Of a stretch of 64,000 nt of DNA, positions 7,707-38,828 are shown one piece after another (the first letter of the stretch is position 1; every line of letters begins with the position of its first letter). The translations under genes were made by a program, and so were the position numbers. The notes below the pieces were generated by a model. That model had not been told where the DNA came from, searched no databases, and saw nothing but the letters and a program-made list of their open reading frames with translations. This DNA is from Salinirubellus salinus (GTDB lineage: Archaea; Halobacteriota; Halobacteria; Halobacteriales; Haloarculaceae), in NCBI RefSeq assembly GCF_025231485.1, contig NZ_CP104003.1, positions 3,859,960-3,923,959 on the forward strand, given 5' to 3'.

Positions 7707-7726
7707 GTGCTAGGCATCTACTGCCC

Positions 7727-9418: not shown

Positions 9419-10177
9419 TCAGGGGGCGCTCGCCGCGGCCGTCTCGGCGATGGCCTCGACGGCGCGGTCGAGGTACGCGTCGATGGTCGACGCGCCGACG
9501 ATGGGGTTGCCGTGGACCGGCGCCCACACCTCGACGTCGTACGTGTCGACCAGTTCCTCGAACGCCCCGCGCATCTTCTCCGCGTCGAGGTACTTCACGA
9601 ACGGGAGTGCGTCCTCGTTGTACGCGCGGATGTCGTCGACGCTCGGGAGGTCGTCGACCGAGCGGCAGACCACCCGACAGTCGCCGGGCCAGTGGTAGTG
9701 CCCCATGTCCGCGACGAACATCGTCTTCGAGCCGTGGTCGTACACCCACATCGAGTGGGCGGCGTCGACGAGCGGCGGCCACGGGAACGAGAGTGTCCGG
9801 CCGCAGATCTCCCGCGTCTCGTCGTGCATCACGCCCGTCGAGGGGCCCATCCCCAGCGCCTCGGGCGACGCGGAGGTACCGCTGAAGGAGGTGTAGAGGT
9901 CGAAGTCCCAGCCCTCACGGAACGCCCGCGCGTTGGCGACGTGCGGGAGGTCGTAGTGACTGAACACGGCCGCGGCGACACCGGCGTCGCCCACCACCTC
10001 GCCGATACGCTCCCGGAGCACGTCCTGGTGTTCGATCGCCCCCGTCTCCACGAGCACGTACCCCTCCGGGGCGTCGACGAGGTACGGCGAGATGTGGTGG
10101 TGGCGCTCGGTCATCTCGTAACACTGGTCGACCCAGTAGACGCCATCGGGAAGCTCGATGGCTGGCGTCTCGGACAT
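9419..10177 (-). CDS. Flavodiiron-like MBL-fold protein, second gene of pair A
   Basis: A 252-residue single-domain MBL-fold protein. The usual HxHxDH motif is replaced by SHYDLPHVAN (His, Asp, Pro, His). Later metal residues follow the flavodiiron order: His in VDAAHSMWVYD, Asp in TMFVADMGHYHW and His in WAPVHGNPI. There is no flavodoxin domain. It closely parallels the product of the gene at 28147. It lies 2 bp after the gene at 10180, so the two are surely one operon and may form a complex. The start MSETPAIEL is chosen because the longer frame overlaps the upstream gene with Arg-rich sequence. A redox or hydrolytic role on a small substrate is possible; neither is shown. Confidence 0.88.
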   Translation of the reverse strand: MSETPAIELPDGVYWVDQCYEMTERHHHISPYLVDAPEGYVLVETGAIEHQDVLRERIGEVVGDAGVAAAVFSHYDLPHVANARAFREGWDFDLYTSFSGTSASPEALGMGPSTGVMHDETREICGRTLSFPWPPLVDAAHSMWVYDHGSKTMFVADMGHYHWPGDCRVVCRSVDDLPSVDDIRAYNEDALPFVKYLDAEKMRGAFEELVDTYDVEVWAPVHGNPIVGASTIDAYLDRAVEAIAETAAASAP

Positions 10178-10179
10178 GG

Positions 10180-10989
10180 TCACTTCAACTCCGCGAGCCG
10201 GCCGCCGGTCGTGATCATCTCGACGACGGTCTTGCTCAGCTCCAGGTGTTCGACGGCGTCCTCTCGGATGACGACACCGTGTGCGGGCGCGAGTATCTGT
10301 GGGTCGTGGTCCTCGATGAGTGCGTCGATGGCCCGGTACACCGCCTCCGGGTCGCAGTACTGCAGCCACCGGAGCGCGCGGGCCTGCATCTCGATGATGC
10401 GTTCGGCGGTCACGGGGACGTCGAGTTCGTCGTTGAACCGTAGACACTCGCCCTCGACGTGGAGCGACCCCATCCAGTCGGCGGTGAACAGCGCGCCGGA
10501 CTCGCGTTCTTTCATCCAGATGTGGAACGCCGTGTCCGGGAACGCCGCCTCGACGAACTCGACGACGTAGCCGCCGAGGTCGACGGTGTCCCCGACCTCG
10601 ACCTTGCGGCCCCGGTCGAGGTAGTAGAGTTCCTCGCCCCGGCCGTACGCCGAGGAGAGGAGTTCCGCGTCCGGGTACGCTCGGAGGATGGCGTTCGTGT
10701 TCCCCGCGTGCGGTGCCTCGGGGTGCGAGGGGACGACGTAGTCGAGGCCGTCCTCACCGACCAACTCCTCCAGTTCCGACAGGAGGAGGTCACGGGCGCC
10801 CGGCGAGACGGTGTCGTACAGCAGCGTCCGCTCGCCCTTCACGAGATAGGCGTTGTTGCAGACGTGTATCGAGCGGTCGGGGTCGTACCACGTCGGCGGT
10901 TCGTCGCGGTCGCGGAACTCCGCGTCCATGACGGGCTTGTCGATACACTGCTGTATCTGGTATATCTCGGGACCGATTCGTCGTGCCAT
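10180..10989 (-). CDS. Flavodiiron-like MBL-fold protein, first gene of pair A
   Basis: The 269-residue protein starts MARRIGPEIYQIQQCIDKPV and continues with the flavodiiron-like opening VCNNAYLVKGERTLLYDTVSP. The metal motif is SHPEAPHAGN, where flavodiiron proteins have SHtEpDHsG, so the Asp ligand is replaced by Pro. The remaining positions are present: His in TAFHIWMKE, Asp in LFTADWMGSLH, and His in LAPAHGVVI. It has no flavodoxin part. It is about the same size as, and clearly related to, the gene at 27341, and each is followed by a second MBL gene. The start at 10989 is the first Met before the conserved region. It is divergent from the carboxymuconolactone-decarboxylase-like gene at 11090. 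Confidence 0.88.
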   Translation of the reverse strand: MARRIGPEIYQIQQCIDKPVMDAEFRDRDEPPTWYDPDRSIHVCNNAYLVKGERTLLYDTVSPGARDLLLSELEELVGEDGLDYVVPSHPEAPHAGNTNAILRAYPDAELLSSAYGRGEELYYLDRGRKVEVGDTVDLGGYVVEFVEAAFPDTAFHIWMKERESGALFTADWMGSLHVEGECLRFNDELDVPVTAERIIEMQARALRWLQYCDPEAVYRAIDALIEDHDPQILAPAHGVVIREDAVEHLELSKTVVEMITTGGRLAELK

Positions 10990-11089: not shown

Positions 11090-11686
11090 ATGGCACGTGT
11101 CAGCTACGTCGACCGGGAGTCGGTCCCCGAGGAGTACCGCGAGCAGTTCGACACCCACCTCGAGATCTCGCTGCCGGACGTCGCCGCGTACGAGAACGTC
11201 CAGGAGACGAACGTCGCCGGTGGCTCGCGGAACATCTACCGGCTGTTCGGCCACCACCCGGAGTTCCTCCGGTCGCACCGCGAGCACCTGTCGCTCATGT
11301 GGGAGACGTTCGACTTCGACCCCCGCGAGCGGGAACTGGCACTGATGGCTGGCGCCAGCGAGATGCGGAGCGAGTACGAGTGGCAACACCACGTCCCGGT
11401 CGCCCTCGACGAGGGGCTGACCGTCGAGGAACTCCGGGCGATATCGGCGGGCACGTTCGACGTGTTCGACCCCGAGGAGGCGCTCCTGCTGGAGTACGCG
11501 ACCCGATTCGTCCGCCGCGACGTCGACGACGACCTCCATCAGCGGATGGCGGAGCACTACGACGACGCGGCCCTCGTGGCACTGAGCACACTCCTCGGTT
11601 TCTACGTGTTCCTCGGATTCACCCTCGACGCGCTGGACGTGGACCTCGAGGACCCGTTCGTCGGTTGGGACCTCTCGGTGTTCTGA
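11090..11686 (+). CDS. Carboxymuconolactone decarboxylase/AhpD-fold protein without cysteines
   Basis: The 198-residue all-helical protein has the family hallmarks ERELALMAGASEMRSEYEWQHH (read as ReL...sEYEWxxH), followed by DEGLTVEELRAI and a C-terminal ALVALSTLLGFYVFLGF helix. The CxxC of AhpD-type peroxidases is missing; the protein has no cysteine, so a redox role is unlikely. Relatives decarboxylate or isomerise small acids or have unknown roles. It is divergent from the MBL pair A with a 100-bp spacer, which suggests a common theme with those genes. Confidence 0.85.
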   Translation: MARVSYVDRESVPEEYREQFDTHLEISLPDVAAYENVQETNVAGGSRNIYRLFGHHPEFLRSHREHLSLMWETFDFDPRERELALMAGASEMRSEYEWQHHVPVALDEGLTVEELRAISAGTFDVFDPEEALLLEYATRFVRRDVDDDLHQRMAEHYDDAALVALSTLLGFYVFLGFTLDALDVDLEDPFVGWDLSVF

Positions 11687-11773
11687 GCGGCTGGGGACTG
11701 GCCGGCCGACCGGGGGTCCCAGCGCGCCACGCACGATAGTGTGTCTCGACGTACCACGAGTCGTTCGAGGGAG

Positions 11774-11788
11774 CGGAACGTCGTTCCG
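11774..11788. repeat. Inverted repeat CGGAAC-N3-GTTCCG
   Basis: Perfect 6-bp arms around GTC. They are the same half-sites as the GTTCC palindromes but in opposite polarity. Confidence 0.4.
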
Positions 11789-11947
11789 TCGGTGGCCGTC
11801 GGGCTCTCGGATTCCGTTTCTGGCGCCCCACCGCCAGTCCCACTACCCGGCCACGCGCCGTCTTCCGGGGCACTCGTCGGCCGCCTGCTCTCGGTTCTCG
11901 TCGGCCATCCAGCGCAGCCACACGTCCGCACTGGTGCTCGAACCGTG

Positions 11948-11964
11948 GTTCCGCGTGGCGGAAC
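11948..11964. promoter_or_regulatory. Palindrome GTTCC-N7-GGAAC, copy 3 (candidate IclR-type operator)
   Basis: GTTCCGCGTGGCGGAAC has 7-bp arms around GTG. It lies 34-50 bp upstream of the likely TATA box of the PrpD gene; an IclR-family gene lies immediately downstream of PrpD. The TTCCGC/GCGGAA arms resemble operators of IclR-family regulators. Confidence 0.5.
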
Positions 11965-11997
11965 GACCGTCCCGAACGGTCGACGCCTCTCCGACCC

Positions 11998-12009
11998 AAA
12001 TGTTCATAC
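11998..12009 (+). promoter_or_regulatory. Possible TATA-like box of the PrpD-family gene
   Basis: AAATGTTCATAC lies 23-34 nt upstream of the ATG at 12032. Confidence 0.45.
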
Positions 12010-12031
12010 CTCCGTCACGGTACGGGACGGT

Positions 12032-13435
12032 ATGGCTACGGACGGACCTACCAGCGACACGACGCCGACCGAACGGCTCGTGGAGGCGTGCTACACCGTC
12101 GACTGGGGAGACGTTCCCCAGCGGGAGCGTGCCCACGCCGTCTCGCTGTTCACCGACCTCGTCGGCGTCGTCCTCGGGAGCGCCGACAGCGTCGAGTCGA
12201 GCCGTATCGTTCGTGACTACGCTCGCTCGTACGGCGGTGGTCCGGCGAGCATCGTCGGCGTCCCCGAGGGCGGCCCGCCGGCGGTGGCGGCGTTCGCGAA
12301 CGGGACGGTCGCACACGGTATCGAGCTGGACGACACCCACAGCGGCTCGTCGGCTCACCCGGGCGCGGTGGTCTTCCCGACGGCACTCGCCGTCGCCGAG
12401 ACCGAGGGTGCGACCGGCCGAGAGTTCGTGAGCGCCGTCGTCGCCGGTTACGAACTCGCGATTCGAATCGGGCGGGCGGCCGACCCCGCGGCACTGTACG
12501 ACCGCGGGTTCCACCCGACGGCGGTGTGTGGCGTCTTCGGCGCCGCGTTGACGGCGGCTCGGCTGCAGGGTCTCGACCTCGAGGCGGCGGTGAACGCCGT
12601 CGGCATCGCGGGGAGCTTCGCGGCGGGGAATCTGGAGTACCTCGCCGACGGCACGCTCTCGAAACGCATCCAGCCCGGTGTCGCCGCCCGCTCGGGCGTG
12701 ACCGCGGCGGCACTGGCAGCCCGTGGCTACACCGGCCCGCGGACGATCCTGGAGGGCGAGAACGGCTTCCTCGACGGCTACTCCGACCGCGCCTCGCTCG
12801 ACCCCCTGTTCGACGAGTTCGACGACGGCTACACGTTCGAGATCGCCCGGACGGGCGTCAAACCCCACGCCTGTTGCCGGTACAACCAGACGCCCATCGA
12901 CGCCGTGCTCTCGCTCCGCGACGAACACGGGCTCGCCCCGGCAGACGTCGAATCGATCACGGTCGGTGTCGTCGACGCGGCGTTCGGGCTCGTCGCCGAG
13001 CCGTGGGAGGCGAAGCTCGCCCCCCGGACACCCACAGACGCACAGTTCAGTCTCCCCTACAGCGTCGCTGTCGCACTCACCGAGGGGCGGGCGTTCTTCG
13101 AGCAGTATCGCGAACCGTACCTCACGGACGACCGCGTGCTCTCGCTGGCCGAGCGGGTGTCCGTCGAACACGCCCCCGAACTCGAGGCCGCGTTCCCCGA
13201 CCAGTGGGGCGCGCGCGTGACCGTCACCAGGACGGACGGGACGGAGCTGACCGCACGACTCGAGACGTGCAAGGGCGACCCGTCGAACATGCTGACCGCG
13301 GCGGAGTTAGACGAAAAGTTCCGGTCGCTGGCCGGCCGTCAGCTCGACGACGAGGCGCTGGACCGGCTGGCAGCGGCGACCCGAGACATCGCGGCGGCCG
13401 AGTCGGTCACGGCCGTGACGGACGCCTTCAGTTGA
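12032..13435 (+). CDS. MmgE/PrpD family protein (2-methylcitrate dehydratase-like)
   Basis: The 467-residue protein has the family marks AVAAFANGTVAHGIELDDTHSGSSAHPGA near residues 90-115, then HPTAVCGVFGAALTAARLQGL and the conserved KPHACCRYNQTPIDAV near residue 280. Characterised members dehydrate 2-methylcitrate or isomerise/decarboxylate other tricarboxylic acids such as cis-aconitate; the substrate cannot be told here. The length is typical. No methylcitrate synthase or lyase is nearby, so propionate use is not supported. The start MATDGPTS fits the A/T-rich box before it. It overlaps the convergent IclR gene by 8 bp, and its upstream region carries a palindrome that could be that regulator's site. 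Confidence 0.9.
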   Translation: MATDGPTSDTTPTERLVEACYTVDWGDVPQRERAHAVSLFTDLVGVVLGSADSVESSRIVRDYARSYGGGPASIVGVPEGGPPAVAAFANGTVAHGIELDDTHSGSSAHPGAVVFPTALAVAETEGATGREFVSAVVAGYELAIRIGRAADPAALYDRGFHPTAVCGVFGAALTAARLQGLDLEAAVNAVGIAGSFAAGNLEYLADGTLSKRIQPGVAARSGVTAAALAARGYTGPRTILEGENGFLDGYSDRASLDPLFDEFDDGYTFEIARTGVKPHACCRYNQTPIDAVLSLRDEHGLAPADVESITVGVVDAAFGLVAEPWEAKLAPRTPTDAQFSLPYSVAVALTEGRAFFEQYREPYLTDDRVLSLAERVSVEHAPELEAAFPDQWGARVTVTRTDGTELTARLETCKGDPSNMLTAAELDEKFRSLAGRQLDDEALDRLAAATRDIAAAESVTAVTDAFS

Positions 13436-14192
13436 ACCGGGTGCCGTGGGCGAGGTTGAGTTCGAGTTCGTTCACGAACCCCAAGAGGAGGTCCGGGATC
13501 TCGTCTTCGAACCACTCGCCCTGCAGCCGGTTGGCTGGCCCGGAGACGCTGAGTGCTCCCACGACGCTCGACCCGTTCGTGACCGGGACGGCGACGGCGT
13601 TGAGCCCCTCGATGGCCTCCGCACGATTGTACGCGACGCCCTGTTCGCGGATGGCGTCGAGTTCCTCGTACAGCACCTCGCGGGACGTGATCGTCGACTT
13701 GGTCAGCGCCTCTAGTCCCCACTTCTCGATGATGGCCTCGACACGTTCTTCGGGGAGCTGTGAGAGTATCGCCTTCCCCCCGGCGATGGTGTGGATCGGT
13801 CGACGAGTCCCGACCGTCGAGTCGGTGGTGACCGCGCGGGGGCCGATGCCGCGGTAGAGGTACACCGCCTCGCCGTGCTCTTCGACCATGAACACCGACC
13901 GCTCTTCCGTCTCCTGAGCGATCTCGTCCACGATTCGCTTCGTCAGGTTGTAGCCGGGGCGGGTGTGCCGCGAGTACTCGCCCAGCTGGAGGAACTTCAA
14001 CCCGATGTTGTAGGCGTTCCCCTCCCTGACGAGATAGCCGCTCTGTTCGAGGGTCGTCAGGTGTCTGTGGGCCGTACTCTTGGCGATGCCCAGGTGTTCC
14101 GCCAGCTCCGACACCCCGGCCCCGTCGAGCGCAACCAGTCCCTCGACGACGGCGAACAGGGTTCCGGCACTCTTCACTCGTCCAGAACTCAT
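13428..14192 (-). CDS. IclR family transcriptional regulator
   Basis: The 254-residue protein has an N-terminal winged helix-turn-helix (TLFAVVEGLVALDGAGVSEL, then AKSTAHRHLTTLEQSGYL, about residues 12-60). A C-terminal IclR effector domain follows (GTRRPIHTIAGGKAIL, GVAYNRAEAIEGLNAVAVPV, VVGALSVSGPANRL). Such proteins sense small organic acids and act as repressors or activators. The start MSSGRVKSAG sits 20-32 nt after a TATA-like box (CACTTATGATGG). Likely targets are neighbours with the GTTCC-N7-GGAAC palindrome, namely the PrpD gene and perhaps the aldehyde oxidoreductase gene; this is inference. Its tail overlaps the PrpD gene on the other strand. Confidence 0.93.
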   Translation of the reverse strand: MSSGRVKSAGTLFAVVEGLVALDGAGVSELAEHLGIAKSTAHRHLTTLEQSGYLVREGNAYNIGLKFLQLGEYSRHTRPGYNLTKRIVDEIAQETEERSVFMVEEHGEAVYLYRGIGPRAVTTDSTVGTRRPIHTIAGGKAILSQLPEERVEAIIEKWGLEALTKSTITSREVLYEELDAIREQGVAYNRAEAIEGLNAVAVPVTNGSSVVGALSVSGPANRLQGEWFEDEIPDLLLGFVNELELNLAHGTRFN

Positions 14193-14211
14193 ACTCGCTA
14201 CTGCACATACT

Positions 14212-14224
14212 CCATCATAAGTGT
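14212..14224 (-). promoter_or_regulatory. TATA-like box of the IclR gene
   Basis: The minus strand reads CACTTATGATGG, about 20-32 nt before the ATG at 14192; leaderless layout. Confidence 0.6.
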
Positions 14225-14293
14225 CTCCTCGAGGATGGGGGTAGTCCCGACTCCTATCGACCACGCGCTCTGGGGGGCGAGCCCACCGCCCGG

Positions 14294-16306: not shown

Positions 16307-16338
16307 CTCTCGTTCCGTTGCTACTGGTAGAGGACTAC

Positions 16339-18072: not shown

Positions 18073-18098
18073 GCCAACGCGGGACGTACCCCACCGGA

Positions 18099-25345: not shown

Positions 25346-26149
25346 TCAGCCGTCGAGGTGGTTCCGGACGGCGGCGAGCCGGTCGCCCAGGAGCGAACGG
25401 GTCGCGCCCACCTCGTGGCCGAGACGTACGAGGTCGAACCCCGCGTCGAGTGCCGCCGTCGTCGCCGCGGCCGACGATGCCGTCCGGCCGACCGGGACGC
25501 CCGCCGCCGTCGACGCGTCCCGCACGGTCTCGATGGCGGCCGTCACGTCCGGGTGGTCGGTCTCCAGCGGGTGGCCCGCGGACACCGAGAGGTCGCTCGG
25601 CCCGAGGAACGTGAACCCGAGGTCGGGGACCGCCAGTATCTCCTCGACGTCGTCGACGGCGGTCAGGTTCTCTATCATCACGCCCACGAGCACGTTCGCG
25701 TCCTGCCGGGCGGCGTAGTCCTCGGTGTCGCCGCCCCAGCCGCTCGCGCGGGCGCCGGCGTAGCCGCGCTCGCCGACGCCACCGTCGTACCTGAATCGGG
25801 CGGCTTCGACCGCGCGCCTGACCTCCGCGGCGGTCTCCACGCGAGGGACCAGCAGGTTCTGGATGCCGGTGTCGAGCACCTTCCGAACCAGCGAGGGGTC
25901 ACCGGACGGGAGCCGCACGAGCGGTTCGATGCCCGCGGCGTCGGCCGCCCGCGCGAGCCCCGCGACGACGGTGGCGTCCTCGGGGTGTGGACCGGCGTTC
26001 TCGAAGTCGAGCCAGACGAAGTCGAGGCCGAGCGCACCGTACACCTCGACGAACGCCGGGTCGAGCGTCGTGACGCCGGCACCGAGGACGGGTTCACCCC
26101 GTTCGAGCGCTCGTCGAAGCGTGTTCGTCGTTCGCCCCCGGTCACTCAC
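25346..26149 (-). CDS. HpcH/HpaI-type aldolase
   Basis: The 267-residue TIM-barrel protein shows the class II pyruvate-aldolase pattern: GAGVTTLDPAFVEVYGALGLDFVWLDFEN, the Arg in EPLVRLPSGDP, a metal Glu in VMIENLTAVDDVEEI and a metal Asp in FLGPSDLSVSAGHP. Family members cleave 4-hydroxy-2-oxo acids to pyruvate plus an aldehyde; some cleave citramalyl- or malyl-CoA. The GTG start at 26149 overlaps the end of the alcohol dehydrogenase gene by 8 bp, so the two are translated from one message. The longer upstream frame is Arg/Ser-rich and spurious. An aldehyde product could be passed to the dehydrogenase (inference). Confidence 0.88.
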   Translation of the reverse strand: MSDRGRTTNTLRRALERGEPVLGAGVTTLDPAFVEVYGALGLDFVWLDFENAGPHPEDATVVAGLARAADAAGIEPLVRLPSGDPSLVRKVLDTGIQNLLVPRVETAAEVRRAVEAARFRYDGGVGERGYAGARASGWGGDTEDYAARQDANVLVGVMIENLTAVDDVEEILAVPDLGFTFLGPSDLSVSAGHPLETDHPDVTAAIETVRDASTAAGVPVGRTASSAAATTAALDAGFDLVRLGHEVGATRSLLGDRLAAVRNHLDG

Positions 26150-27245
26150 TGACGACCACCTGCGCCGGGCCGAACGCACCGTAGTCCGCCTTGTTCGTCG
26201 TGATGTCGACGGCTTCCTCGAACGCGTCGAGCCCCCGTACCTCGTGGGTGATACAGTCGGCGATGTCGACCCGGCCGTCGGCGACGAGTTTCGCGGCGAG
26301 GTCGCCGGAGTCCGCGTTCGGGCCGAGCGAGACGACGCCACGCAGGGGGTTGATCCACTGGAGCTGCTTCGAGCGCATCTGCCGCGGACTCACCGTCAGC
26401 TCGCCGGCGATGCTCCCCACCTGCACGATTCGACCACCGGAACGGAGCATCTGGACCGCCTGCGCGAGCGGGTCGGTCCCCTCGTTGGCGTGCGACTGGT
26501 CGCCGCCGACGCACTCGAGGACGACGTCGGCACCGATACCGTCGGTGAGGTCGTCGACGACGGCGACGGGGTCGTCGGTCGAGGCGTCGACACCGATCAT
26601 CCCGCGTGACTCGGCCAGCTCGGCCTTCTCCGCGTTGACGTCCACCGCGACGACGTCGCTCGCACCCTGCTGGAGCGCGAGCTGGCCACACTGGTAGCCC
26701 ATCACCCCCGCGCCGGTGACGACGACCACGTCGCCGTCGGCGATCTCGGCGTCCCGAACACAGAGGACGGCGCTGGCCATCGGCTGGAGTGCGGCCCCCT
26801 CCGCGTCCGAGACGCCGTCGGGAACGCGACGGAGCGGTCCCGGTGGGAGCGTCAGGTACTCCGCACACGCCCCCGGAGTCTGGAGACCGATGGTGGCTTT
26901 CGCCTTGCAGAACTGCGTGTAGCCGGCCTCACAGTAGGTACACGCGTGACACGGGAGCTTTCCGGCGGCGTAGACGCGGTCGCCGACGGTGAACCCGTCG
27001 ACGTCCGCGCCGACCTCGGCGACCTCCGCACAGAACTCGTGGCCGAACAGCAGGCCATCCCCCGCGGCCATCCGGTCGCGGACGGACTCGTAGTGGACGA
27101 CCTCCGCCCCGTGGTAGAGCTGACACTCCGTGATGCTCAACTGGACGCGCTTGACGGCCAGCAGCAGTTCGTCGGCCGCCGGCTCCGGAGTCGGTACCTC
27201 GGCGACGCGACACTCCTCGAAGTCGTCGCAGACTATCGCTCGCAT
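26142..27245 (-). CDS. Zinc-binding medium-chain alcohol dehydrogenase
   Basis: The 367-residue protein has the GroES-like half with LLFGHEFCAEVAEVG and GDRVYAAGKLPCHAC, four structural-zinc cysteines (CHACTYCEAGYTQFC), and a Rossmann half with VVVTGAGVMGYQCGQLA and VAVDVNAEK. The position of the first catalytic-zinc ligand is unusual: SITECQLYHG appears where CGTDxHxxHG is common, so Cys becomes Ser and a Cys lies four residues later. It would oxidise a hydroxy compound with NAD(P). It shares a message with the HpcH/HpaI aldolase gene and is divergent from MBL pair B. Confidence 0.88.
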   Translation of the reverse strand: MRAIVCDDFEECRVAEVPTPEPAADELLLAVKRVQLSITECQLYHGAEVVHYESVRDRMAAGDGLLFGHEFCAEVAEVGADVDGFTVGDRVYAAGKLPCHACTYCEAGYTQFCKAKATIGLQTPGACAEYLTLPPGPLRRVPDGVSDAEGAALQPMASAVLCVRDAEIADGDVVVVTGAGVMGYQCGQLALQQGASDVVAVDVNAEKAELAESRGMIGVDASTDDPVAVVDDLTDGIGADVVLECVGGDQSHANEGTDPLAQAVQMLRSGGRIVQVGSIAGELTVSPRQMRSKQLQWINPLRGVVSLGPNADSGDLAAKLVADGRVDIADCITHEVRGLDAFEEAVDITTNKADYGAFGPAQVVVSE

Positions 27246-27340: not shown

Positions 27341-28144
27341 ATGCCTAGAACCCTGACCGACGGCATCGAGTGGATCCAGGGGTGCATCCCACGGCCCGGC
27401 CTGACCACCGACTACGTCGCCGACCCGCCCGACTGGTACGAGCCCGAGCGCGAGGTCCACACCTGCCAGAACGCCTACCTCGTGACGGGCGAGCGGACGC
27501 TCCTGTTCGATACGCTCTCGCCGGCGAACCGCGAGCACGTGCTCGAGGAACTCGACGTCGCGCTCGACGGCCGCGACCTCGACTACCTCGTCGTCTCGCA
27601 CCCGGAAGCGCCCCACGCCGGCAACGCGTTCGCCATCCTCGAGCGCCACCCGGAGGCGACGCTCGTCGCGCCCGCCCACGGTAACGAACACGAACTGTAC
27701 CATCTCGGGGACGCCGAGCAGGTGGCTCCCGGCGACACCATCGACCTCGGGGGGCGCGAGGTCGAGTTCCTCCAGCCGCTGTTCCTCGACCACGCCATGC
27801 ACATCTGGATGCGCGAGACGACGACTGGAACCTTCTTCCCGGTCGACTGGCTCGGCTTCCCACACATGGACGGTGAGTGTCTGACCGTCGTCGAGGAACT
27901 CGACCACGAGGTGACCGTCGACCAGTTGCTCGCGTTCCACGGGCGCGTCTTCTTCTGGTACCAGTACGCCGACGTCCAGAAGACGAACGGCGTCGTCGAG
28001 GAGCTCGCCGACCGCTACGCATCGGACGTCGTGGCGCCGGCTCACGGCCTCCCGATCACGGCCGACGCCGGGGCGTTCATCGAGCGGATGACGGCGATCG
28101 TCGAGCACGTGAGTGAACGCGGCCGTCTGGACGTGTTCGGGTGA
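27341..28144 (+). CDS. Flavodiiron-like MBL-fold protein, first gene of pair B
   Basis: The 267-residue protein starts MPRTLTDGIEWIQGCIPRPG and has TCQNAYLVTGERTLLFDTLSP, as in the gene at 10180. The metal motif SHPEAPHAGN again has Pro where flavodiiron proteins have Asp. The other sites are His in HAMHIWMRE, Asp in FFPVDWLGFPH and His in VAPAHGLPI. There is no flavodoxin domain. Its stop overlaps a GTG (28141) that could start the next gene, so the two are coupled. The two-gene layout repeats pair A at 10989-9419. A joint function with the neighbouring aldolase/dehydrogenase genes is possible but unproven. Confidence 0.88.
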   Translation: MPRTLTDGIEWIQGCIPRPGLTTDYVADPPDWYEPEREVHTCQNAYLVTGERTLLFDTLSPANREHVLEELDVALDGRDLDYLVVSHPEAPHAGNAFAILERHPEATLVAPAHGNEHELYHLGDAEQVAPGDTIDLGGREVEFLQPLFLDHAMHIWMRETTTGTFFPVDWLGFPHMDGECLTVVEELDHEVTVDQLLAFHGRVFFWYQYADVQKTNGVVEELADRYASDVVAPAHGLPITADAGAFIERMTAIVEHVSERGRLDVFG

Positions 28145-28146: not shown

Positions 28147-28893
28147 ATGTCCGTCCAGCTCACCGAGGACGTGACGTGGCTCGCCGAGAGCTACCCGCAC
28201 GGCGAGAAGCACCTCCACGTCTCCGTCTACCTCGTCGAACACGACGACAGCTACATCCTCGTCGACTCGGGCTCGTTCTATCACCGCGAGCAGATCGACG
28301 CGCAACTCGCCGAGACCATCGGCGACGCGCCCGTCGACGCGCTCGTCCTCTCACACGCCGACCTCCCGCACTCGGGGAACGTCCCCGAGTTCCGGGACCG
28401 CTGGCCCGAGTTGACGCTCGTGTCGTCGTCGGGATCACCGGCGGTCGTCGGCCTCGGCCACGCCGACGTGACCGCCGAGATCGGCGGTACGATGGACATC
28501 TGCGGGCGGACGTTCTCGTTCGTCGACCCGCCGCTCGCGGACATCCAGCACTCGACGTGGATATTCGACCACGACTCGGGCGTGCTGTTCACGGCCGACG
28601 GTTTCGGCAACTACCACGCACCCGAACACGCCGGCGAGCCGTTCGGGGCCGTCGACGGCGGCGTCCCGACCGCGGACATCCGCGACTACCACCGGGACGC
28701 GCTCCGGTGGCTCTGCTACGTCGACCCGGCGCGTATCGACCCGGCCGTCGACGCGCTGTTCGAGGACCTCGACGTGTCGGTCCTCGCCCCGACGCACGGC
28801 AACCCGATCGAAGCCGCGGACTTCCCCGAGTACCGGGCACGACTCTGGGCGGCCATCGAGGAGATCTCGCGGACGGACCCCCACGACCTGTAG
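28147..28893 (+). CDS. Flavodiiron-like MBL-fold protein, second gene of pair B
   Basis: A 248-residue protein related to the gene at 9419: ESYPHGEKHLHVSVYLVEHDD, metal motif SHADLPHSGN, His in ADIQHSTWIFD, Asp in LFTADGFGNYH and His in LAPTHGNPI. As in the partner, the Asp of HxxxDH is Pro. It starts either at ATG 28147 or at GTG 28141, which overlaps the previous stop. A heteromer with the first gene product is a reasonable guess because the arrangement is conserved in two copies. It converges on another MBL gene (stop codons one base apart). Confidence 0.87.
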   Translation: MSVQLTEDVTWLAESYPHGEKHLHVSVYLVEHDDSYILVDSGSFYHREQIDAQLAETIGDAPVDALVLSHADLPHSGNVPEFRDRWPELTLVSSSGSPAVVGLGHADVTAEIGGTMDICGRTFSFVDPPLADIQHSTWIFDHDSGVLFTADGFGNYHAPEHAGEPFGAVDGGVPTADIRDYHRDALRWLCYVDPARIDPAVDALFEDLDVSVLAPTHGNPIEAADFPEYRARLWAAIEEISRTDPHDL

Positions 28894-31738: not shown

Positions 31739-32734
31739 TCAGTCGGCCGCTTCGACCGTCACACGGGGGTCGATGTAGCTGTACAGCAGGTCGATGGCCC
31801 AGTTGCCCAGCAGGATGAAGACCGCCAGCAGCAGGAAGATGAACTGGACGACAGCGAAGTCACGGCCCAGCACGGCCTGCACGAGCGCCTGCCCGATGCC
31901 CGGCCAGTTGAACACGACCTCCAGCAGGACGAGCCCGCTCAGCGCACGGGTCATCGCGATCGGGTAGAGCGTGAGCGCCGGCAGGCTCGCGTGCTTCGCG
32001 AGGTGCCGGTAGCGGTTGAACTTCGGCAGCCCGGTGATGCGCTGGTAGTGGATGAAGTCCTGGCCGAGCACCTCGACCACGCTCGTCCGCATCACGAGCG
32101 CCGGCGTGTTGATGTACCGGAGGACGATGACGCTGAACGGCAGGATGTAGTGGAGCGCGAAGTCCTGCGACGTGTACGGCCGCCACCACGGTAGTCCTTC
32201 GAACTTCCCCGCGTTGATCGGCGAGAGCATCCCCGAGGAGGGGAACCAGTTCAGCCAGCTCGAGAAGATGACGATCATGACGATACCGAGGAAGAAGATG
32301 GGCAGGGTCCCCATCACGACGGTCCCCACGATGCCGAACCGCTCGATCCGGGTGCCGCGCTTGCTCCCGAGGATGGTGCCGATGACCGCGCCGATGACGT
32401 ACCCGAGGGTGATGGCGGGAGCGACCAGGATGAACGTGTTGAAGATCTTCATCTGGACGAAGTCCCACACCGGTCCGCGAGCGCCGAGCGAGAAGCCGGC
32501 GTCGAGCGTGAGCAGGTTCGCGATGTAGCTGAAGTACTGGACGTACAACGGCTGGTCGAGCCCCCACTTCCGAACCAGCTCCTCTGCCGTCTCCGGCGGG
32601 ATCCCTTCGTACAACATCAAGTCGATGAAGTCCCCCGGCATCAGCCGGAAGAAGAAGAACAGGAACGTGATGATCATCCAGAGGAGGAACACCGTCTGGA
32701 TCGACCGGTACACGAAGTAACGGCGGCGGCTCAT
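31739..32734 (-). CDS. Oligopeptide-type ABC transporter permease (DppB-like)
   Basis: The 331-residue protein has six or so membrane segments and the DppB/OppB layout: YRSIQTVFLLWMIITFLFFFFRLMPGD at the start, an external loop with GLDQPLYVQYFSYIANL and the ATPase-contact loop RITGLPKFNRYRHLAKHASLPAL. It is the last gene of the operon 35764-31739, 57 bp after the ATPase gene at 32792. It would form the membrane channel with the permease at 34850. Confidence 0.93.
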   Translation of the reverse strand: MSRRRYFVYRSIQTVFLLWMIITFLFFFFRLMPGDFIDLMLYEGIPPETAEELVRKWGLDQPLYVQYFSYIANLLTLDAGFSLGARGPVWDFVQMKIFNTFILVAPAITLGYVIGAVIGTILGSKRGTRIERFGIVGTVVMGTLPIFFLGIVMIVIFSSWLNWFPSSGMLSPINAGKFEGLPWWRPYTSQDFALHYILPFSVIVLRYINTPALVMRTSVVEVLGQDFIHYQRITGLPKFNRYRHLAKHASLPALTLYPIAMTRALSGLVLLEVVFNWPGIGQALVQAVLGRDFAVVQFIFLLLAVFILLGNWAIDLLYSYIDPRVTVEAAD

Positions 32735-32791
32735 CGGTCGGCCACCTCCACTGCTGCGGCGGTCGGGTGACGGCTCCTGCTGGTGGCCCGT

Positions 32792-33823
32792 TCAGTCATC
32801 GCTCGGTGCCTCCACTCCTTTCGCTGCTGCTTCGTGTTCCTCATGGTCGTAGTACAGGTGACAGGCGACGTGGTGCCCTTCCTCCTGGATGAACGCCGGG
32901 GTCCTGTCACAGATGTCCATCCGCTCGGGACAGCGCTCGCGGAAGCGACACCCTTCACCGAGGCCGATGGGGTCCGGCGTCGACCCCTCGAGGGTCGTCC
33001 GCTCCCGGTCGTGGTTCGGGTCCGGGATCGGGATCGCGTTGATGAGCGCCTTCGAGTAGGGGTGCTTCGGGTTCTCGAGGATGTCCATCGTCGGCGCCGT
33101 CTCGACGATCCGGCCGAGGTACATCACGTTGATGTCGTCGCAGATGTAGCTGACCGTCGAGAGGTCGTGCGAGATGTAGATGATGGAGAGGTCCATCTCC
33201 TCTTTCAGTCGCGCGAGCAGTTTCAGGATGACTGCCTGCGTCGACACGTCCAGCATCGACACCGGCTCGTCCGCGAGGATGACGTCCGGTCGCAGGACGA
33301 GCGCCCGTGCGATGGCCACCCGCTGTTTCTCCCCGCCGCTGAGTTGGTCGGGGAAGCGGTCGATGTACCGCTCCGGCGGCCGGAGCTCGACCTGTTCGAG
33401 CGTCTCCTTGATCCGCTCCTCCTTGTTCTCGATCCCGTGGACGTCGAGCGGGATCTCGAGGGTGTTCCGGACCGACATCTTCGGGTCGAGCGAGTCGAAC
33501 GGGTTCTGGAAGATGACCTGCACCTCCCGGCGGAACTGCTTCCAGTCCCGCTTGTCGAACGTCGAGATGTCGCGACCCTTGAACGTGACACTGCCGCCGG
33601 TCCCGTCGATGAGGCCGAGTAGCACCATCAGGAGCGTCGTCTTCCCACAGCCACTCTCCCCGATGACGCCCTTCGACTCGTTCTCGTGGAGCGTGAACGT
33701 GACGTCGTCGACCGCCTTGACCGTCTCGGGCGTGCGACCCAGGAGCGTGTCGAGGATCCCCTGACTCTGGTCGAAGTACTTCTCGAGGTTCTGCACCTCG
33801 AGCAGTGGCTCGCGGTCGGTCAC
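32792..33823 (-). CDS. Oligopeptide-type ABC transporter ATPase (DppF-like)
   Basis: The 343-residue ATPase has Walker A GESGCGKTTLL, signature LSGGEKQRVAIARAL, Walker B VILADEPVSMLD and the H-loop in YISHDLSTV. The C-terminal oligopeptide-transporter domain has a cysteine group (CRFRERCPERMDICDRTPAF) that usually holds an iron-sulfur centre or metal in this family. It starts at a GTG overlapping the stop of the preceding ATPase gene (GTGA), so the two are coupled. Confidence 0.94.
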   Translation of the reverse strand: MTDREPLLEVQNLEKYFDQSQGILDTLLGRTPETVKAVDDVTFTLHENESKGVIGESGCGKTTLLMVLLGLIDGTGGSVTFKGRDISTFDKRDWKQFRREVQVIFQNPFDSLDPKMSVRNTLEIPLDVHGIENKEERIKETLEQVELRPPERYIDRFPDQLSGGEKQRVAIARALVLRPDVILADEPVSMLDVSTQAVILKLLARLKEEMDLSIIYISHDLSTVSYICDDINVMYLGRIVETAPTMDILENPKHPYSKALINAIPIPDPNHDRERTTLEGSTPDPIGLGEGCRFRERCPERMDICDRTPAFIQEEGHHVACHLYYDHEEHEAAAKGVEAPSDD

Positions 33824-34845
33824 GGCGACTCACCCCCGGGGGTCGTCTCCACGGGTCCCTCGTAGAGCTCGTGTACCTCGTTCCAGCGGAAGCAGGCCGC
33901 CCGGTGCTCGCCCGCGGTGTCGACCGCCTCGAGCGTCGGTGCACGCTGCCGGCACTCCTCGACGGCCCACGGACACCGGTCGACGAACGTACACTCGGCC
34001 ACCTCGCCGAGGTGCTGTGGTGGCGACCCCTTGATGGTCCCGAGTTCGCGTTTCGGGTCGCGGACGTCCGGGAACGCCTCCTGCAGGAGGATGGCGTACG
34101 GGTGTCGGGGCGTGTTGAACACGTCGTAGACGTCGCCGGACTCGGCGAGCTGTCCACCGTGCATGACGCCCATGCTGTCACACGACTCGAACACGAGGCT
34201 GATGTCGTGGGTGATGAGCAGCATGCTCATCTCGTACTCCTCCTGCACCCGGTCGATGTACTTGAAGATCTGGTCCTGCATGATGACGTCGAGCGCCGTC
34301 GTCGGCTCGTCGGCGATGATGAGCGAGGGGTTCAGGAACAGCGCGAGCGCGATGATGGCCCGCTGTTGCATCCCGCCGGAGAACTGGTGGGGGTACTCCT
34401 TCACCCGCTCGGGCTTGAGGCCGACCGTCTCGAACAGCTCTTTGAACCGCTCGAGCGCCTCCTTCTTGGTCATGTCCGTGTGGACGTCGGCTAGCTCGAG
34501 CGCGTGTTCGTCGATGCGTTTCAGCGGGTCCAGGCTGTTCATCGACCCCTGCGGGATCTGTGAGATCTCCTTCCACCGGATCGTCTTGTTCCACTGCGCC
34601 TCGGTGAAGTCCTGGATCTCCTCGCCGCGGTACTTGATGGTGCCAGAGACGACCTCGCCGTTGTCGTCGAGCCCGCCGATCATCGCGTTGACGATGGTGC
34701 TCTTTCCGCACCCCGACTCGCCGACGAGCCCGAAGTACTCGCCCTCGTCGACGGTGAACGAGACGCCCGAGACGGCGGTCAGCGGTCCCTCGCTGGTCCG
34801 GTACTGGATGGTGAGGTCCTCGACTTCGAGTAGTGGTTCGCTCAT
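33820..34845 (-). CDS. Oligopeptide-type ABC transporter ATPase (DppD-like)
   Basis: The 341-residue ATPase has Walker A GESGCGKSTIV, signature FSGGMQQRAIIALAL, Walker B LIIADEPTTALD and the H-loop LLITHDISLV. Its C-terminal domain has the four-Cys pattern CTFVDRCPWAVEECRQRAP. The start MSEPLLEVEDL lies 4 bp after the stop of the permease gene at 34850 (tight spacing). Together with the gene at 32792 it makes the ATPase pair that drives import. Confidence 0.94.
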   Translation of the reverse strand: MSEPLLEVEDLTIQYRTSEGPLTAVSGVSFTVDEGEYFGLVGESGCGKSTIVNAMIGGLDDNGEVVSGTIKYRGEEIQDFTEAQWNKTIRWKEISQIPQGSMNSLDPLKRIDEHALELADVHTDMTKKEALERFKELFETVGLKPERVKEYPHQFSGGMQQRAIIALALFLNPSLIIADEPTTALDVIMQDQIFKYIDRVQEEYEMSMLLITHDISLVFESCDSMGVMHGGQLAESGDVYDVFNTPRHPYAILLQEAFPDVRDPKRELGTIKGSPPQHLGEVAECTFVDRCPWAVEECRQRAPTLEAVDTAGEHRAACFRWNEVHELYEGPVETTPGGESP

Positions 34846-34849
34846 CGAA

Positions 34850-35764
34850 TCACCCCGCCTCCACGAACGCGGTGTCACCAGCCTGTCCGGTCACGATCTC
34901 CTCGTACTTGCGGCCGAACATGAACGCCGAGAGGACGGTCAACGAGATGAGGACCCCCGGTGTGAGTGACCACCAGAAGTTCTCCACGTAGCCGTTCGAG
35001 TAGGCGTTGCGGATCATGATCCCCCACGAGGGGACGAACGGGTCGGAGACCCCGATGAACGCCAGCCCCGCCTGCACGAGGATGGAGAAGCCGATACCCA
35101 GCGAGAAGAACAGGATCATCATCGGTGCGATGTTCGGGATGAAGTGTTTGCGGACGATGGCCAGCGACCCCATCCCGGTCGCTCGGGCCGCGAGGATGAA
35201 GTTCCGCTCCTTTATCTGGAGCACCTGTGACCGGAGGACGCGGGCGCTACTGCGCCAGAGCAGCGCCCCCAACACGAGGATGGTCGTGAAGAGACCGAAG
35301 CCGAACAGCGCGAGCAGGACGATGGCGAACGGGATTAGCGGCACCCCGTAGACGAAGTCGGTGAACCGCATCAGGACGTTCTCTACCCAGCCACCGAAGT
35401 ACCCGGCCGTCACGCCGATGCTGGTACCGATGGTGATGATCATCGCCCCACCGAGCAACCCCGTGATGATCGTCGGCCGGGCCCCGATGATGAGTCGCGA
35501 GAGGACGTCCTGTCCGAGGTGGTTCGTCCCGAGCGGGTGCGCCGCCGACGGTGACGACGCGATGAGGAGGAAGCCATCTTCGTCCTTCTGTGTCTCCGTG
35601 TAGTCGTAGGGGGCGAGGTAGGGCCCGAACGCGGCGAGGAAGATGACGAACGCGAGGAAGCCGGCGTACAGGGCGATCTCCTTGTCGTTCGTTATCACCG
35701 ATATGACACCTACCAGCCGGTCAGGGAGGGATGGAATTGCATCACTCACGGGTATGGCTGACAT
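34850..35764 (-). CDS. Oligopeptide-type ABC transporter permease (DppC-like)
   Basis: The 304-residue protein has six membrane segments and the DppC/OppC pattern: HPLGTNHLGQDVLSRLIIGARPTI, the contact loop ARATGMGSLAIVRKHFIPNIAPM, and a C-terminal FIGVSDPFVPSWGIMIRNAY. It is the first gene of the four-gene transporter operon. The start MSAIPVSDA at 35764 follows a TATA-like box by 24-36 nt; the frame continues further upstream but crosses that promoter. No binding protein is inside the operon; the one at 38829 is the natural partner. Confidence 0.93.
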   Translation of the reverse strand: MSAIPVSDAIPSLPDRLVGVISVITNDKEIALYAGFLAFVIFLAAFGPYLAPYDYTETQKDEDGFLLIASSPSAAHPLGTNHLGQDVLSRLIIGARPTIITGLLGGAMIITIGTSIGVTAGYFGGWVENVLMRFTDFVYGVPLIPFAIVLLALFGFGLFTTILVLGALLWRSSARVLRSQVLQIKERNFILAARATGMGSLAIVRKHFIPNIAPMMILFFSLGIGFSILVQAGLAFIGVSDPFVPSWGIMIRNAYSNGYVENFWWSLTPGVLISLTVLSAFMFGRKYEEIVTGQAGDTAFVEAG

Positions 35765-35787
35765 TGCCGCATCCTTTCCGTGTCGGG

Positions 35788-35800
35788 GTAAATAAGTTTC
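35788..35800 (-). promoter_or_regulatory. TATA-like box of the ABC transporter operon
   Basis: The minus strand reads GAAACTTATTTAC, 24-36 nt before the ATG at 35764. Confidence 0.65.
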
Positions 35801-35897
35801 GCCTCTGGGAACGCGCCTGCACCGGACGTGCACCGAATCGGTCGTCGCTTCGACATTCGGGCGAGACACGACGTGGGTCGGTCACTGCCCGCTGAGA

Positions 35898-35907
35898 TAC
35901 ATTTAAC
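35898..35907 (+). promoter_or_regulatory. TATA-like box of the crotonase gene at 35931
   Basis: TACATTTAAC lies 24-33 nt before the ATG. Confidence 0.6.
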
Positions 35908-35930
35908 TCGCCACCGACGGACGAGCGAGC

Positions 35931-36704
35931 ATGTCCGGGAGCCTCGATGTCGACATCGACCCGCCAGTCTGCACGCTCACCATCTCGAACCCCGGCAAGC
36001 GCAACGCGCTCTCGTCGTCGTTCCTCCCGGAGGTCGGAGCGACCCTGGAGTCGCTCTCCGACCGGACCGACGTCCGATGTGTCGTTCTCACCGGTGCGGG
36101 CGACGCGGCGTTCTGTGCCGGCTACGACATCTCCGAGCTGTCGACCGACCAGCGCGACCGCGAACGACTCGTCGAGGACACGACCCGGCAGCTCCGCGAG
36201 TTCGACTACCCGAGTGTCGCACGGATCAACGGCGACACCGTCGGCGCCGGGATGAACCTCGCGGGCGCCTGTGACATCCGGGTCGCCGTCGACGAGGCGC
36301 GGTTCGGCGTCACACCGGCGAAACTGGGCAACGTCTACAGCTACGACGGCATCCAGCAACTCGTCGACATCGTCGGCCCTGCGGACGCGAAGGAACTGCT
36401 GTTCACGGCCGACCTCGTTCCCGCCGAGCGCGCCGCACGCATGGGACTCGTCCACTACGTCGTCGACCGCGAGTCACTCGACGACCGGGTGTCCGAACTG
36501 GCCGGCACCATCGGCTCGAACGCGCCACTCTCGCTGTCGGGGATGAAACGGATCGTCAACGCCATCACTGAGCGGGGGTCGTTCGGGGCCGCCGAGCGCG
36601 AGTGGGCTGCCCGCATCAGGACAGAGGCACGCGAGAGCCGCGACCACGAGGAGGGGAAACGCGCGTTCGCAGAGAAGCGCGCACCGGAGTTCGAAGGGCA
36701 CTGA
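35931..36704 (+). CDS. Enoyl-CoA hydratase/isomerase (crotonase) family protein
   Basis: The 257-residue protein has the crotonase oxyanion-hole elements (AAFCAGYDIS near residue 60; GDTVGAGMNLAGACD near 105). The first catalytic Glu of classic enoyl-CoA hydratases (in PEI.LG) is replaced: FGVTPAKLGNVYSYDG. The second Glu position may be kept in DAKELLFTADL. It may therefore be an isomerase, decarboxylase or hydrolase rather than a hydratase. The C-terminal EEGKRAFAEKRAPEFEG is typical. It is followed after 46 bp by a CoA-transferase gene on the same strand. Confidence 0.88.
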   Translation: MSGSLDVDIDPPVCTLTISNPGKRNALSSSFLPEVGATLESLSDRTDVRCVVLTGAGDAAFCAGYDISELSTDQRDRERLVEDTTRQLREFDYPSVARINGDTVGAGMNLAGACDIRVAVDEARFGVTPAKLGNVYSYDGIQQLVDIVGPADAKELLFTADLVPAERAARMGLVHYVVDRESLDDRVSELAGTIGSNAPLSLSGMKRIVNAITERGSFGAAEREWAARIRTEARESRDHEEGKRAFAEKRAPEFEGH

Positions 36705-36717
36705 GGGGTCGGCCCCG

Positions 36718-36729
36718 AAACTATATGTG
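36718..36729 (+). promoter_or_regulatory. TATA-like box of the CoA-transferase gene at 36751
   Basis: AAACTATATGTG lies 22-33 nt before the ATG. Almost the same box precedes the gene at 42140. Confidence 0.65.
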
Positions 36730-36750
36730 GTCGAACAGGGTCTCTCGCAC

Positions 36751-37935
36751 ATGGTCGAGCCGCTTCGCCACGTAACAGTCGTCGACACGACGCGATTCCT
36801 CGCCGGACCGTTCTGCACGCAGCTCCTCGGTGACCTCGGGGCCGAGGTCATCAAGATCGAACCGCCTGGGGGAAGTCCGAACCGGGGGACGACTCCGGCG
36901 CAGAACGGGGTCGGCTCGACGTTCATCTCGCGCAACCGGAACAAGAAGTCCATCGTCGTGAACCTGAAGACGGAAGCGGGCCGCCAGCTGATGGAGGACC
37001 TCGTCGCCGAGGCGGACGTCCTCGTCGAGAACTTCAGTCTCGGCGTGATGGAGCGACTGGGGCTCGGCTACGACTACCTCTCGACCGAGGTGAATCCGGG
37101 ACTCGTCTACGCGTCCATCAAGGCGTTCGGTGAGAGCGGGCCCGCGAAGGACCGGAAGGGGGTGGACCCGATGATGCAGGCCGAAGCCGGGCTGATGAGC
37201 GTCACCGGCGAGGAGGACGGCGACCCGGTGAAAGTCGGCGTCTCTATCGGAGACATGGGCGCCGGGCTCTACAGCGCCATCGCCATCCTCACCGCGCTCA
37301 ACTACCGCGACCAGACGGGCGAGGGACAGAAGGTCGAGACGGACCTGTTCGGCACCATCACCTCGTTCATGGAGGAGCACGTCACTGCCTACAGCATCAG
37401 CGGCGAGAACCCGGCGCCGGTCGGGACCAAACAGGCGAACGCCGTCCCCTCCGAACTGTTCGAGACGGCGGACGGCCACGTGATGGTCAACGCCTCCATC
37501 CCGGCGCTGTGGACCCGGCTCGTCGAGGACGTCCTCGAGGAGGACCACCTCCTGCAGTACGACTCGCTGGAGAGACGGCAGGAGCACTACGACGACATCA
37601 TGGCCGTCCTGCGGCCCCGTTTCCGCGAGCACCCCACCGTGGAGTGGCAGGCGGTGCTCGACGAGCACGGCATCCCGAACGGCGCACTGAGTCAGGTCAG
37701 CGACGTGGTCGCCCATCCGCACGCGCGCGAGCGCGGGGACGTGTTCGACTACGCGGACGACACCGTCGGGGAGGTGACGATGGCGGGCTATCCGCTCCAC
37801 TTCTCGAAATCCGGGACGAGTGTGCGGTCCGGCCCCCCCAGCCTCGGCGAACACACCGACGAGGTCCTGTCGACGCACCTCGGTCTCGACGCGGAGACCA
37901 TCGCCGGGCTCCGCGAAGACGGGGTCGTCGCCTGA
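36751..37935 (+). CDS. CaiB/BaiF (class III) CoA-transferase
   Basis: The 394-residue protein starts MVEPLRHVTVVDTTRF and has the family signature FLAGPFCTQLLGDLGAEVIKIEPPGG, NRNKKSIVVNLKTEAG, the catalytic Asp in QKVETDLFGTITSF and the C-terminal HPHARERGDVFDY. It would move CoA from a donor such as succinyl-CoA to an organic acid, activating it for breakdown. The length is typical (about 400). The ATG at 36727 lies inside the promoter box and is rejected. It converges on the DUF2848 gene with a 1-bp gap. Confidence 0.92.
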   Translation: MVEPLRHVTVVDTTRFLAGPFCTQLLGDLGAEVIKIEPPGGSPNRGTTPAQNGVGSTFISRNRNKKSIVVNLKTEAGRQLMEDLVAEADVLVENFSLGVMERLGLGYDYLSTEVNPGLVYASIKAFGESGPAKDRKGVDPMMQAEAGLMSVTGEEDGDPVKVGVSIGDMGAGLYSAIAILTALNYRDQTGEGQKVETDLFGTITSFMEEHVTAYSISGENPAPVGTKQANAVPSELFETADGHVMVNASIPALWTRLVEDVLEEDHLLQYDSLERRQEHYDDIMAVLRPRFREHPTVEWQAVLDEHGIPNGALSQVSDVVAHPHARERGDVFDYADDTVGEVTMAGYPLHFSKSGTSVRSGPPSLGEHTDEVLSTHLGLDAETIAGLREDGVVA

Positions 37936-37936
37936 C

Positions 37937-38659: not shown

Positions 38660-38681
38660 GGAAGAGCGCTCGTGAGAGCCG

Positions 38682-38693
38682 AGCATATACCTT
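38682..38693 (-). promoter_or_regulatory. TATA-like box of the DUF2848 gene
   Basis: The minus strand reads GAAGGTATATGC, 23-34 nt before the GTG at 38659. It contains the rejected upstream ATG. Confidence 0.6.
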
Positions 38694-38738
38694 CCGTCGG
38701 TCGGCCCGGCGTCCCCCCGCTGCTCGAGCCACCTCGGA

Positions 38739-38748
38739 GAGAATTCTC
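38739..38748. repeat. Short palindrome GAGAATTCTC between divergent promoters
   Basis: Perfect 10-bp palindrome midway between the DUF2848 and binding-protein promoters; a possible operator for either. Short enough to be chance. Confidence 0.3.
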
Positions 38749-38796
38749 GGTTCTGAGAGGGTGAAACGGCGAAATGTCGAAAACGCCTACAGAAGT

Positions 38797-38807
38797 GTTA
38801 AGTATTC
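38797..38807 (+). promoter_or_regulatory. TATA-like box of the substrate-binding protein gene
   Basis: GTTAAGTATTC lies 22-32 nt upstream of the ATG at 38829. Confidence 0.65.
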
Positions 38808-38828
38808 TGCCCTGTCTTGTCTGGTTGT

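Follow-up and report, generated by a model that had tools for sequence, protein, structure and literature searches.

Two paralogous MBL-fold proteins, here called F (first member) and S (second member), are almost certainly obligate functional partners, and very probably form a heteromer. They were identified as two gene pairs, A and B, in a stretch of 64,000 nucleotides of the genome of the haloarchaeon Salinirubellus salinus (hereafter the window). Flavodiiron-type domains are known for O2 or NO reduction. We propose instead that F/S is an obligate two-subunit catabolic metalloenzyme of flavodiiron protein (FDP) type MBL origin, with F as the catalytic subunit and O2-dependent oxidation as the preferred chemistry, a reading that, taken as a whole, we hold to have about even odds of being right.

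Two gene pairs of different lineages

The four open reading frames on which the original prediction was built are all present. In pair A, A1 (F, the predicted catalytic subunit, 269 aa) is found at 10180..10989 and A2 (S, 252 aa) at 9419..10177, both on the reverse strand. In pair B, B1 (F, 267 aa) is at 27341..28144 and B2 (S, 248 aa) at 28147..28893, both on the forward strand; B2 also has an in-frame GTG at 28141, a start that would overlap with the stop of B1. The assignments come from the ORF listing and the ligand table for all four, with Pfam for A1, B1 and B2 and AlphaFold2 models for A1 and A2. Order and strand agree within each pair, and the 12-nt F/S junction, TGACCATGTCCG, is identical in both (approximately 10178..10189 of the reverse strand in pair A, near 28142-28153 in pair B). 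The same two-gene arrangement is indeed present twice. Since the S start lies 2 nt past the F stop within this string in both pairs, the junctions suggest that F and S are translationally coupled.

The first members are 43% identical to each other (A1-B1) and the second members 40% (A2-B2), while first and second members share 27-31%. A whole-genome search gave A1, A2, B1 and B2 as the only close family members in this genome, the remaining matches being weak and partial. Pair A is closest to the pairs of Natrinema zhouii (L015; F 70%, S 65% identity) and of genome G320 (L049; F 72%, S 66%), and pair B falls within the main haloarchaeal clade. The window holds two different F/S lineages. A paired duplication had been proposed before; the trees place A and B in two separate clades, with no recent duplication, and the idea that pair B arose locally from pair A is rejected.

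Fold and family membership

Pfam searches with the window proteins gave Lactamase_B and mostly weak ODP (PF19583) matches. For the latter family, B2 scored 36 against a cut-off of 27.2 bits, and A1, A2 and B1 stayed under the cut-off. NCBIfam matches were all far under cut-off, the best being NorV. No flavodoxin domain was detected by Pfam in any of the four, as had been predicted: the proteins stop at 248-269 aa and have matches of the MBL/ODP type only. The nearest solved relatives by sequence are the MBL domains of FDPs. The AlphaFold2 models of A1 and A2 (pLDDT 92.0 and 84.8) have the FDP-type MBL fold, and their top Foldseek matches in the PDB are FDPs (ROO 1e5d, FprA and others); ODP is also among the matches, with 6qrq within the top ten for A2. 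A role in anti-phage defence was considered and dropped, as the PADLOC HMMs gave no match at E<=0.01. In line with the original statement, neither Pfam, NCBIfam, the PDB nor the open-licence literature was found to assign an activity to pairs of this kind. Neither did we find a characterised relative with the F-type metal site, nor a published degradation cluster with an F/S pair in the open-licence literature, where absence is not proof.

The metal site

FDPs bind their diiron center through His79, Glu81, Asp83, His84, His146, Asp165 and His226 (ROO numbering, used below for alignment positions). In the C. difficile FDP the ligands are His83, Glu85, Asp87, His88, His149, Asp168 and His229 (PMC6033852). 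At the H-x-E-x-D-H segment all four window proteins read H-x-[E/D]-x-P-H (HPEAPH in A1 and B1, HYDLPH in A2, HADLPH in B2). The predicted replacement of the flavodiiron Asp by Pro is therefore seen in all of them; in A2 and B2, Glu81 is also replaced, by Asp. Of the later His, Asp and His positions described as kept, Asp165 and His226 are, but His146 is Asp in all four (Asp152 in A1, Asp138 in A2, Asp150 in B1, Asp132 in B2). This Asp is located exactly 19 residues ahead of the bridging Asp in the four proteins, a spacing identical to that of FDPs, and it falls opposite the FDP His when the profile is aligned to FprA; therefore, two ligands are altered and not one. The His that had been taken for the kept ligand is probably a nearby one (in HIW, HSMW or HSTW) that sits 3-4 residues beyond this Asp. 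Similarly, HGNPI, given as a shared ending of the second members, is an internal motif around His226. The predicted ligands of A1 are His89, Glu91, His94, Asp152, Asp171 and His237, with Pro93 at the Asp83 position. The equivalent residues, in each protein's own numbering, are His74, Asp76, Pro78, His79, Asp138, Asp157 and His222 in A2; His87, Glu89, Pro91, His92, Asp150, Asp169 and His235 in B1; and His70, Asp72, Pro74, His75, Asp132, Asp151 and His217 in B2.

We then aligned 99 full-length F sequences with four FDPs. His79, His84, Asp165 and His226 were invariant in all 99 and position 81 was Glu or Asp. The Asp83 position was Pro in 94, Asn in three and Ala in two, never Asp, and the His146 position was Asp in 99 of 99. 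The changed metal site is thereby borne out, with both Asp83 and His146 replaced, and the seven-ligand set of FDPs is absent from F. Also absent is the H-x-H-x-D-H motif of the zinc MBL hydrolases (beta-lactamase, glyoxalase II, lactonases), F reading H-x-[E/D]-x-[P/N/A]-H. Further invariant residues of F in a 46-sequence alignment were Cys15, His42, Asp59, Trp158 and Cys182. Haloarchaeal S resembles F, with most ligands kept and position 81 mostly Asp. In bacterial S, His79 is replaced by Arg in 71 of 71 sequences, the His84 position is occupied by Cys, Ser or another residue and the His226 position varies; because of these replacements bacterial S should be unable to hold the usual metal pair.

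Pairing of F and S across genomes

Among 392 genomes of haloarchaeal orders, 28 carry the family. In 27 of them every member belongs to an adjacent pair, and the remaining genome has a single match near a contig edge; apart from S. salinus, 26 haloarchaeal genomes have exactly two adjacent members. We also scanned 84,980 species genomes, seeding the search with an alignment of bacterial F (haloarchaeal and bacterial F combined were too diverse), and found 48 loci, chiefly in Actinomycetota and Alphaproteobacteria. Such a scan, being seeded with F, finds F-bearing loci alone, and orphan S were therefore checked in whole genomes: 26 bacterial genomes searched in full gave 45 places for F and 45 for S (our own count of strong matches). 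Over all loci (haloarchaea, Actinomycetota, Alphaproteobacteria and others) a same-strand S accompanied F in 101 of 101 full-length F genes. The two were adjacent in all but one locus, Nocardia L115, in which ca. 1 kb lies between them; L112 holds one additional F piece, a broken fragment outside this count. F comes first in 52 cases, the order of archaea and of most alphaproteobacteria, and S in 49, the order of most actinobacteria, so adjacency has been kept although order has not. Many actinobacteria have two pairs a few kb apart. With pairing of this extent in haloarchaeal genomes, among F genes and in whole bacterial genomes, the objection that the two members might rarely be adjacent elsewhere does not apply. 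No F/S pairs were found in the sampled Halobacteriota other than haloarchaea, where the matches were single and FDP-like, nearly all of them in long open frames.

In the trees, all S sequences fall into a single clade (support 0.89) and F plus S separate from the four FDPs (0.99); support for the monophyly of F is weak (0.25 at the node concerned). F and S are old paralogues. Their distance matrices are correlated (r=0.91 over 97 pairs, with none of 2000 permutations as high; 0.92 within archaea and 0.85 within bacteria), although part of this correlation is due to the shared ancestry of linked genes and would be expected for any such two. Co-occurrence in haloarchaeal and bacterial genomes and co-evolution had been named beforehand as signs of a complex; the two members do co-occur, and their trees are correlated. 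In two similar proteobacterial loci (L119 and L121) S carries a Tat-like signal and F none, the pattern that would be expected if F were exported bound to S.

Comparison with known systems

The FDPs (ROO 1e5d, FprA 2ohh/1ycf, NorV 4d02) are like F/S in the fold of their MBL domain, give its best sequence matches and have the His79, Glu/Asp81, His84, Asp165 and His226 positions that are kept in F. Unlike them, F/S has mostly Pro at Asp83 and Asp at His146, has no flavodoxin domain, consists of two paralogous genes and is found in a catabolic context. ODP (6qrq, 6qwo, PF19583), a flavin-free oxygen-binding diiron protein, is like F/S a single MBL domain of ca. 250 aa without flavin. However, its sequence keeps Asp83 and His146 and has no His84, unlike F, and it is an unpaired chemotaxis sensor. 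F/S thus falls outside the FDPs by its ligands and the missing flavodoxin domain, outside ODP by its context, with B2 alone scoring above the cut-off of that family, and outside the zinc MBL hydrolases by its motif.

Heterodimers of FDP-type proteins are known from cyanobacteria, in Flv1/Flv3 and Flv2/Flv4 (PMC6658166), and metal ligands have been lost in divergent class-C flavodiiron members (PMC7785958). As in these proteins, bacterial F and S are co-occurring paralogous partners of FDP type (45 F and 45 S in the genomes searched whole), one of them with its metal ligands lost. The cyanobacterial proteins differ from F/S in their flavodoxin and flavin-reductase domains and in their photoprotective O2 reduction; they are the nearest precedent for the proposed architecture of F/S.

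CmlA (4JO0), an MBL-fold diiron beta-hydroxylase, has a large N-terminal domain, belongs to a different MBL subgroup, is biosynthetic and keeps the motif-2 Asp, all unlike F/S with its single-domain proteins. It resembles F in having a carboxylate (Glu377; PMC7846560) for the fourth His, and may do so in O2 activation. In F the corresponding residue is the invariant Asp at His146, an equivalence that rests on the shared order of MBL motifs. The UlaG-type Mn/Fe lactonases belong to a different MBL subfamily, are unpaired and keep a motif of the H-x-H-x-D-H type, unlike F. They do resemble F/S in their role in carbon-source catabolism and in an Asp for the fourth His; a carboxylate at this position is a feature of Fe-type sites, the residue being Glu377 in CmlA, an oxygenase, and Asp184 among UlaG-group enzymes (PMC7846560).

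Gene neighborhoods

Pair A is next to genes of the carboxymuconolactone-decarboxylase and MmgE/PrpD families and an IclR regulator (11090..14264, Pfam), and pair B to an HpcH/HpaI aldolase family gene and a zinc-type alcohol dehydrogenase (25346..27245, reverse strand, Pfam). Further on (31739..40673, neighbor clusters c1-c3, c21 and c26) there is a dipeptide-type ABC transporter with two permeases, two ATPases and a substrate-binding protein (38817-40673), interspersed with enoyl-CoA-hydratase and CoA-transferase-like genes. An aldehyde ferredoxin oxidoreductase family gene (7529-9397, forward strand) adjoins pair A on the opposite strand, and a HyuB- and HyuA-type hydantoinase/oxoprolinase two-gene set (16297-20178, forward strand) lies between the pairs. 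UlaG-like MBL genes (Lactamase_B_3/B_2) are located near each pair, at 14324-14989 (forward strand) and at 28895-29752 (reverse strand), the latter directly convergent with pair B. With an AOR-type enzyme, MmgE/PrpD, HyuAB, amidases, CoA transferases, acyl-CoA synthetases and the ABC transporter, the region from ca. 7 to 64 kb of the window looks like a large catabolic island.

The context elsewhere was taken from annotated plasmid loci and clustered neighborhoods. In Actinomycetota it comprises a dipeptide-type ABC transporter, a pair, an isochorismatase-type hydrolase, a second pair, a PuuE-like hydrolase, an XRE-cupin regulator, an arylmalonate-decarboxylase/maleate-isomerase-like protein, an amidohydrolase and an amidase. 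This conserved two-pair cluster, with its isochorismatase-type hydrolase, PuuE-like hydrolases, amidase and dipeptide-type ABC transporter, was seen at L017, L077, L078, L080-L082, L084, L086-L089, L091-L095, L112, L114 and L117. Alphaproteobacterial pairs are accompanied by tripartite tricarboxylate binding proteins, luciferase-like flavin oxygenases, HpcH aldolase, CoA transferase, and HMG-CoA-lyase-like and isopropylmalate-dehydratase-like enzymes. Haloarchaeal pairs are found with ABC, TTT or TRAP uptake systems, HpcH/CitE, PrpF, a PEP-mutase-type lyase, IclR, creatininase, M20 peptidase and an F420-type luciferase-like enzyme. The pathways are so diverse that no single substrate is indicated, and no consistent partner fixes one pathway; no redox partner gene goes consistently with F/S across the neighborhoods, and no NO/O2-detoxification partner genes were found in them.

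Two candidate leads from the neighborhoods were discarded. The neighborhoods of N. zhouii (L015), G320 (L049), the window at 44-46 kb and L106 suggested that F/S might receive its electrons from a dedicated Rieske ferredoxin. However, this ferredoxin belongs to a module of its own, mostly found without F/S, in which a small Rieske ferredoxin gene comes immediately after an Amidohydro_2 gene (window 44263-46062, reverse strand; L015 8343-9787; L049 10394-11846; L106 9532-10938). The module is widespread in haloarchaea, with matches to its two genes in 93 and 100 of 392 genomes (about a quarter), side by side with a gap of <=133 nt in the twelve best places compared. It co-occurs with F/S in 11 genomes where 6.6 would be expected (p=0.04), a weak enrichment. 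The other lead was a maleate-type pathway through the arylmalonate-decarboxylase/maleate-isomerase-like neighbors. The window gene (53056-53826, reverse strand) has both expected Cys positions (GCTSGS, SCTNY), but the actinobacterial copies (L078-L095) read HGTSGSW and IGTNL, apparently with neither Cys, and such neighbors therefore do not fix the chemistry.

Proposed function and alternatives

F and S would both derive from the MBL domain of flavodiiron-type proteins. In F, the catalytic subunit, metal 1 would be held by His89, Glu/Asp91, Asp152 and Asp171 and metal 2 by His94, Asp171 and His237 (A1 numbering), which would leave metal 2 with a 2-His-1-carboxylate set. The FDP ancestry is dimeric; S may pack on F where an FDP dimer has its second subunit, in bacteria at least probably no longer binding the metal pair. 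That F/S is a catabolic enzyme we consider highly probable, and it may catalyze an early step in the breakdown of organic acids, amides or heterocycles taken up by the cell, its likely substrate class. The metal is probably of the Fe or Mn type. The proposed chemistry would be an O2-dependent, oxygenase or dioxygenase-like oxidation using iron, without flavin domain or dedicated reductase. O2 chemistry is favored by the FDP ancestry, the carboxylate for the fourth His and the Glu or Asp at motif 2, where Glu is typical of FDPs (PMC7785958). It is favored too by the distribution of F/S in haloarchaea and mostly aerobic bacterial groups, with none in the other Halobacteriota sampled. The loss in F of an Asp used by hydrolytic MBLs points in the same direction. 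In those enzymes the Asp of H-x-H-x-D-H binds metal 2 and orients water.

The main competitor is a two-subunit Mn, Fe or Zn hydrolase acting in the same catabolic pathways, which would open a lactone, lactam, cyclic imide or comparable ring in a role like that of UlaG. Most MBL enzymes are hydrolases, a hydrolytic F/S would need no redox partner, many neighbors hydrolyze amides or esters (amidase, isochorismatase type, PuuE-like, amidohydrolase, creatininase), and UlaG, a lactonase, itself has Asp at the fourth-His position (PMC7846560). Against this stand the motif Asp, never found in the 99 F sequences, and the Glu/Asp at motif 2 together with the FDP ancestry, which favor iron. F/S therefore seems to us more likely O2-using than hydrolytic; given the UlaG Asp, the missing redox partner and the weak Rieske enrichment, we put O2 use at roughly a coin toss and regard hydrolysis as possible though rather doubtful.

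Two further readings keep closer to known relatives. An FDP-like system scavenging O2, NO or peroxide to shield the catabolic enzymes would agree with the closest relatives being O2/NO reductases; it is very improbable, since flavodoxin, rubredoxin and reductase are absent both as domains and as neighbors, two ligands are altered in all F and the gene context is one of substrate uptake and catabolism. About as improbable is an ODP-like pair that would sense a ligand or oxygen and regulate the cluster rather than act as an enzyme. The weak PF19583 matches and the nature of ODP as a flavin-free FDP relative speak for such a sensor, but the clusters have their own IclR, GntR, LysR, TetR or XRE-cupin regulators, no chemotaxis genes were found among the annotated or classified neighbors, and the ligands of F are strictly conserved, as in a catalyst.

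Implications

Taking the O2-dependent reading further, F/S could tentatively be seen as a previously undescribed family of heterodimeric, flavin-free MBL-fold iron oxygenases of Archaea and Bacteria, in which a 2-His-1-carboxylate-like catalytic subunit and a metal-dead or metal-modified paralogue perform an early catabolic step on such imported compounds; we consider this full description less likely than not. If our proposal is true, an FDP-type protein has shed its flavin domain, had its metal site rebuilt at two positions and become an obligate pair in the carbon-source catabolism of Archaea as well as Bacteria, which would be a new enzyme type in the superfamily. The bacterial pairs would clearly exemplify how, in nature, a metal-binding subunit is retained with a metal-dead sister. 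Soil actinobacteria, alphaproteobacteria and haloarchaea all have degradation clusters in which F/S recurs, and its genes are annotated there merely as "MBL fold metallo-hydrolase" or "hypothetical protein"; an assigned activity would therefore make many of these clusters interpretable.
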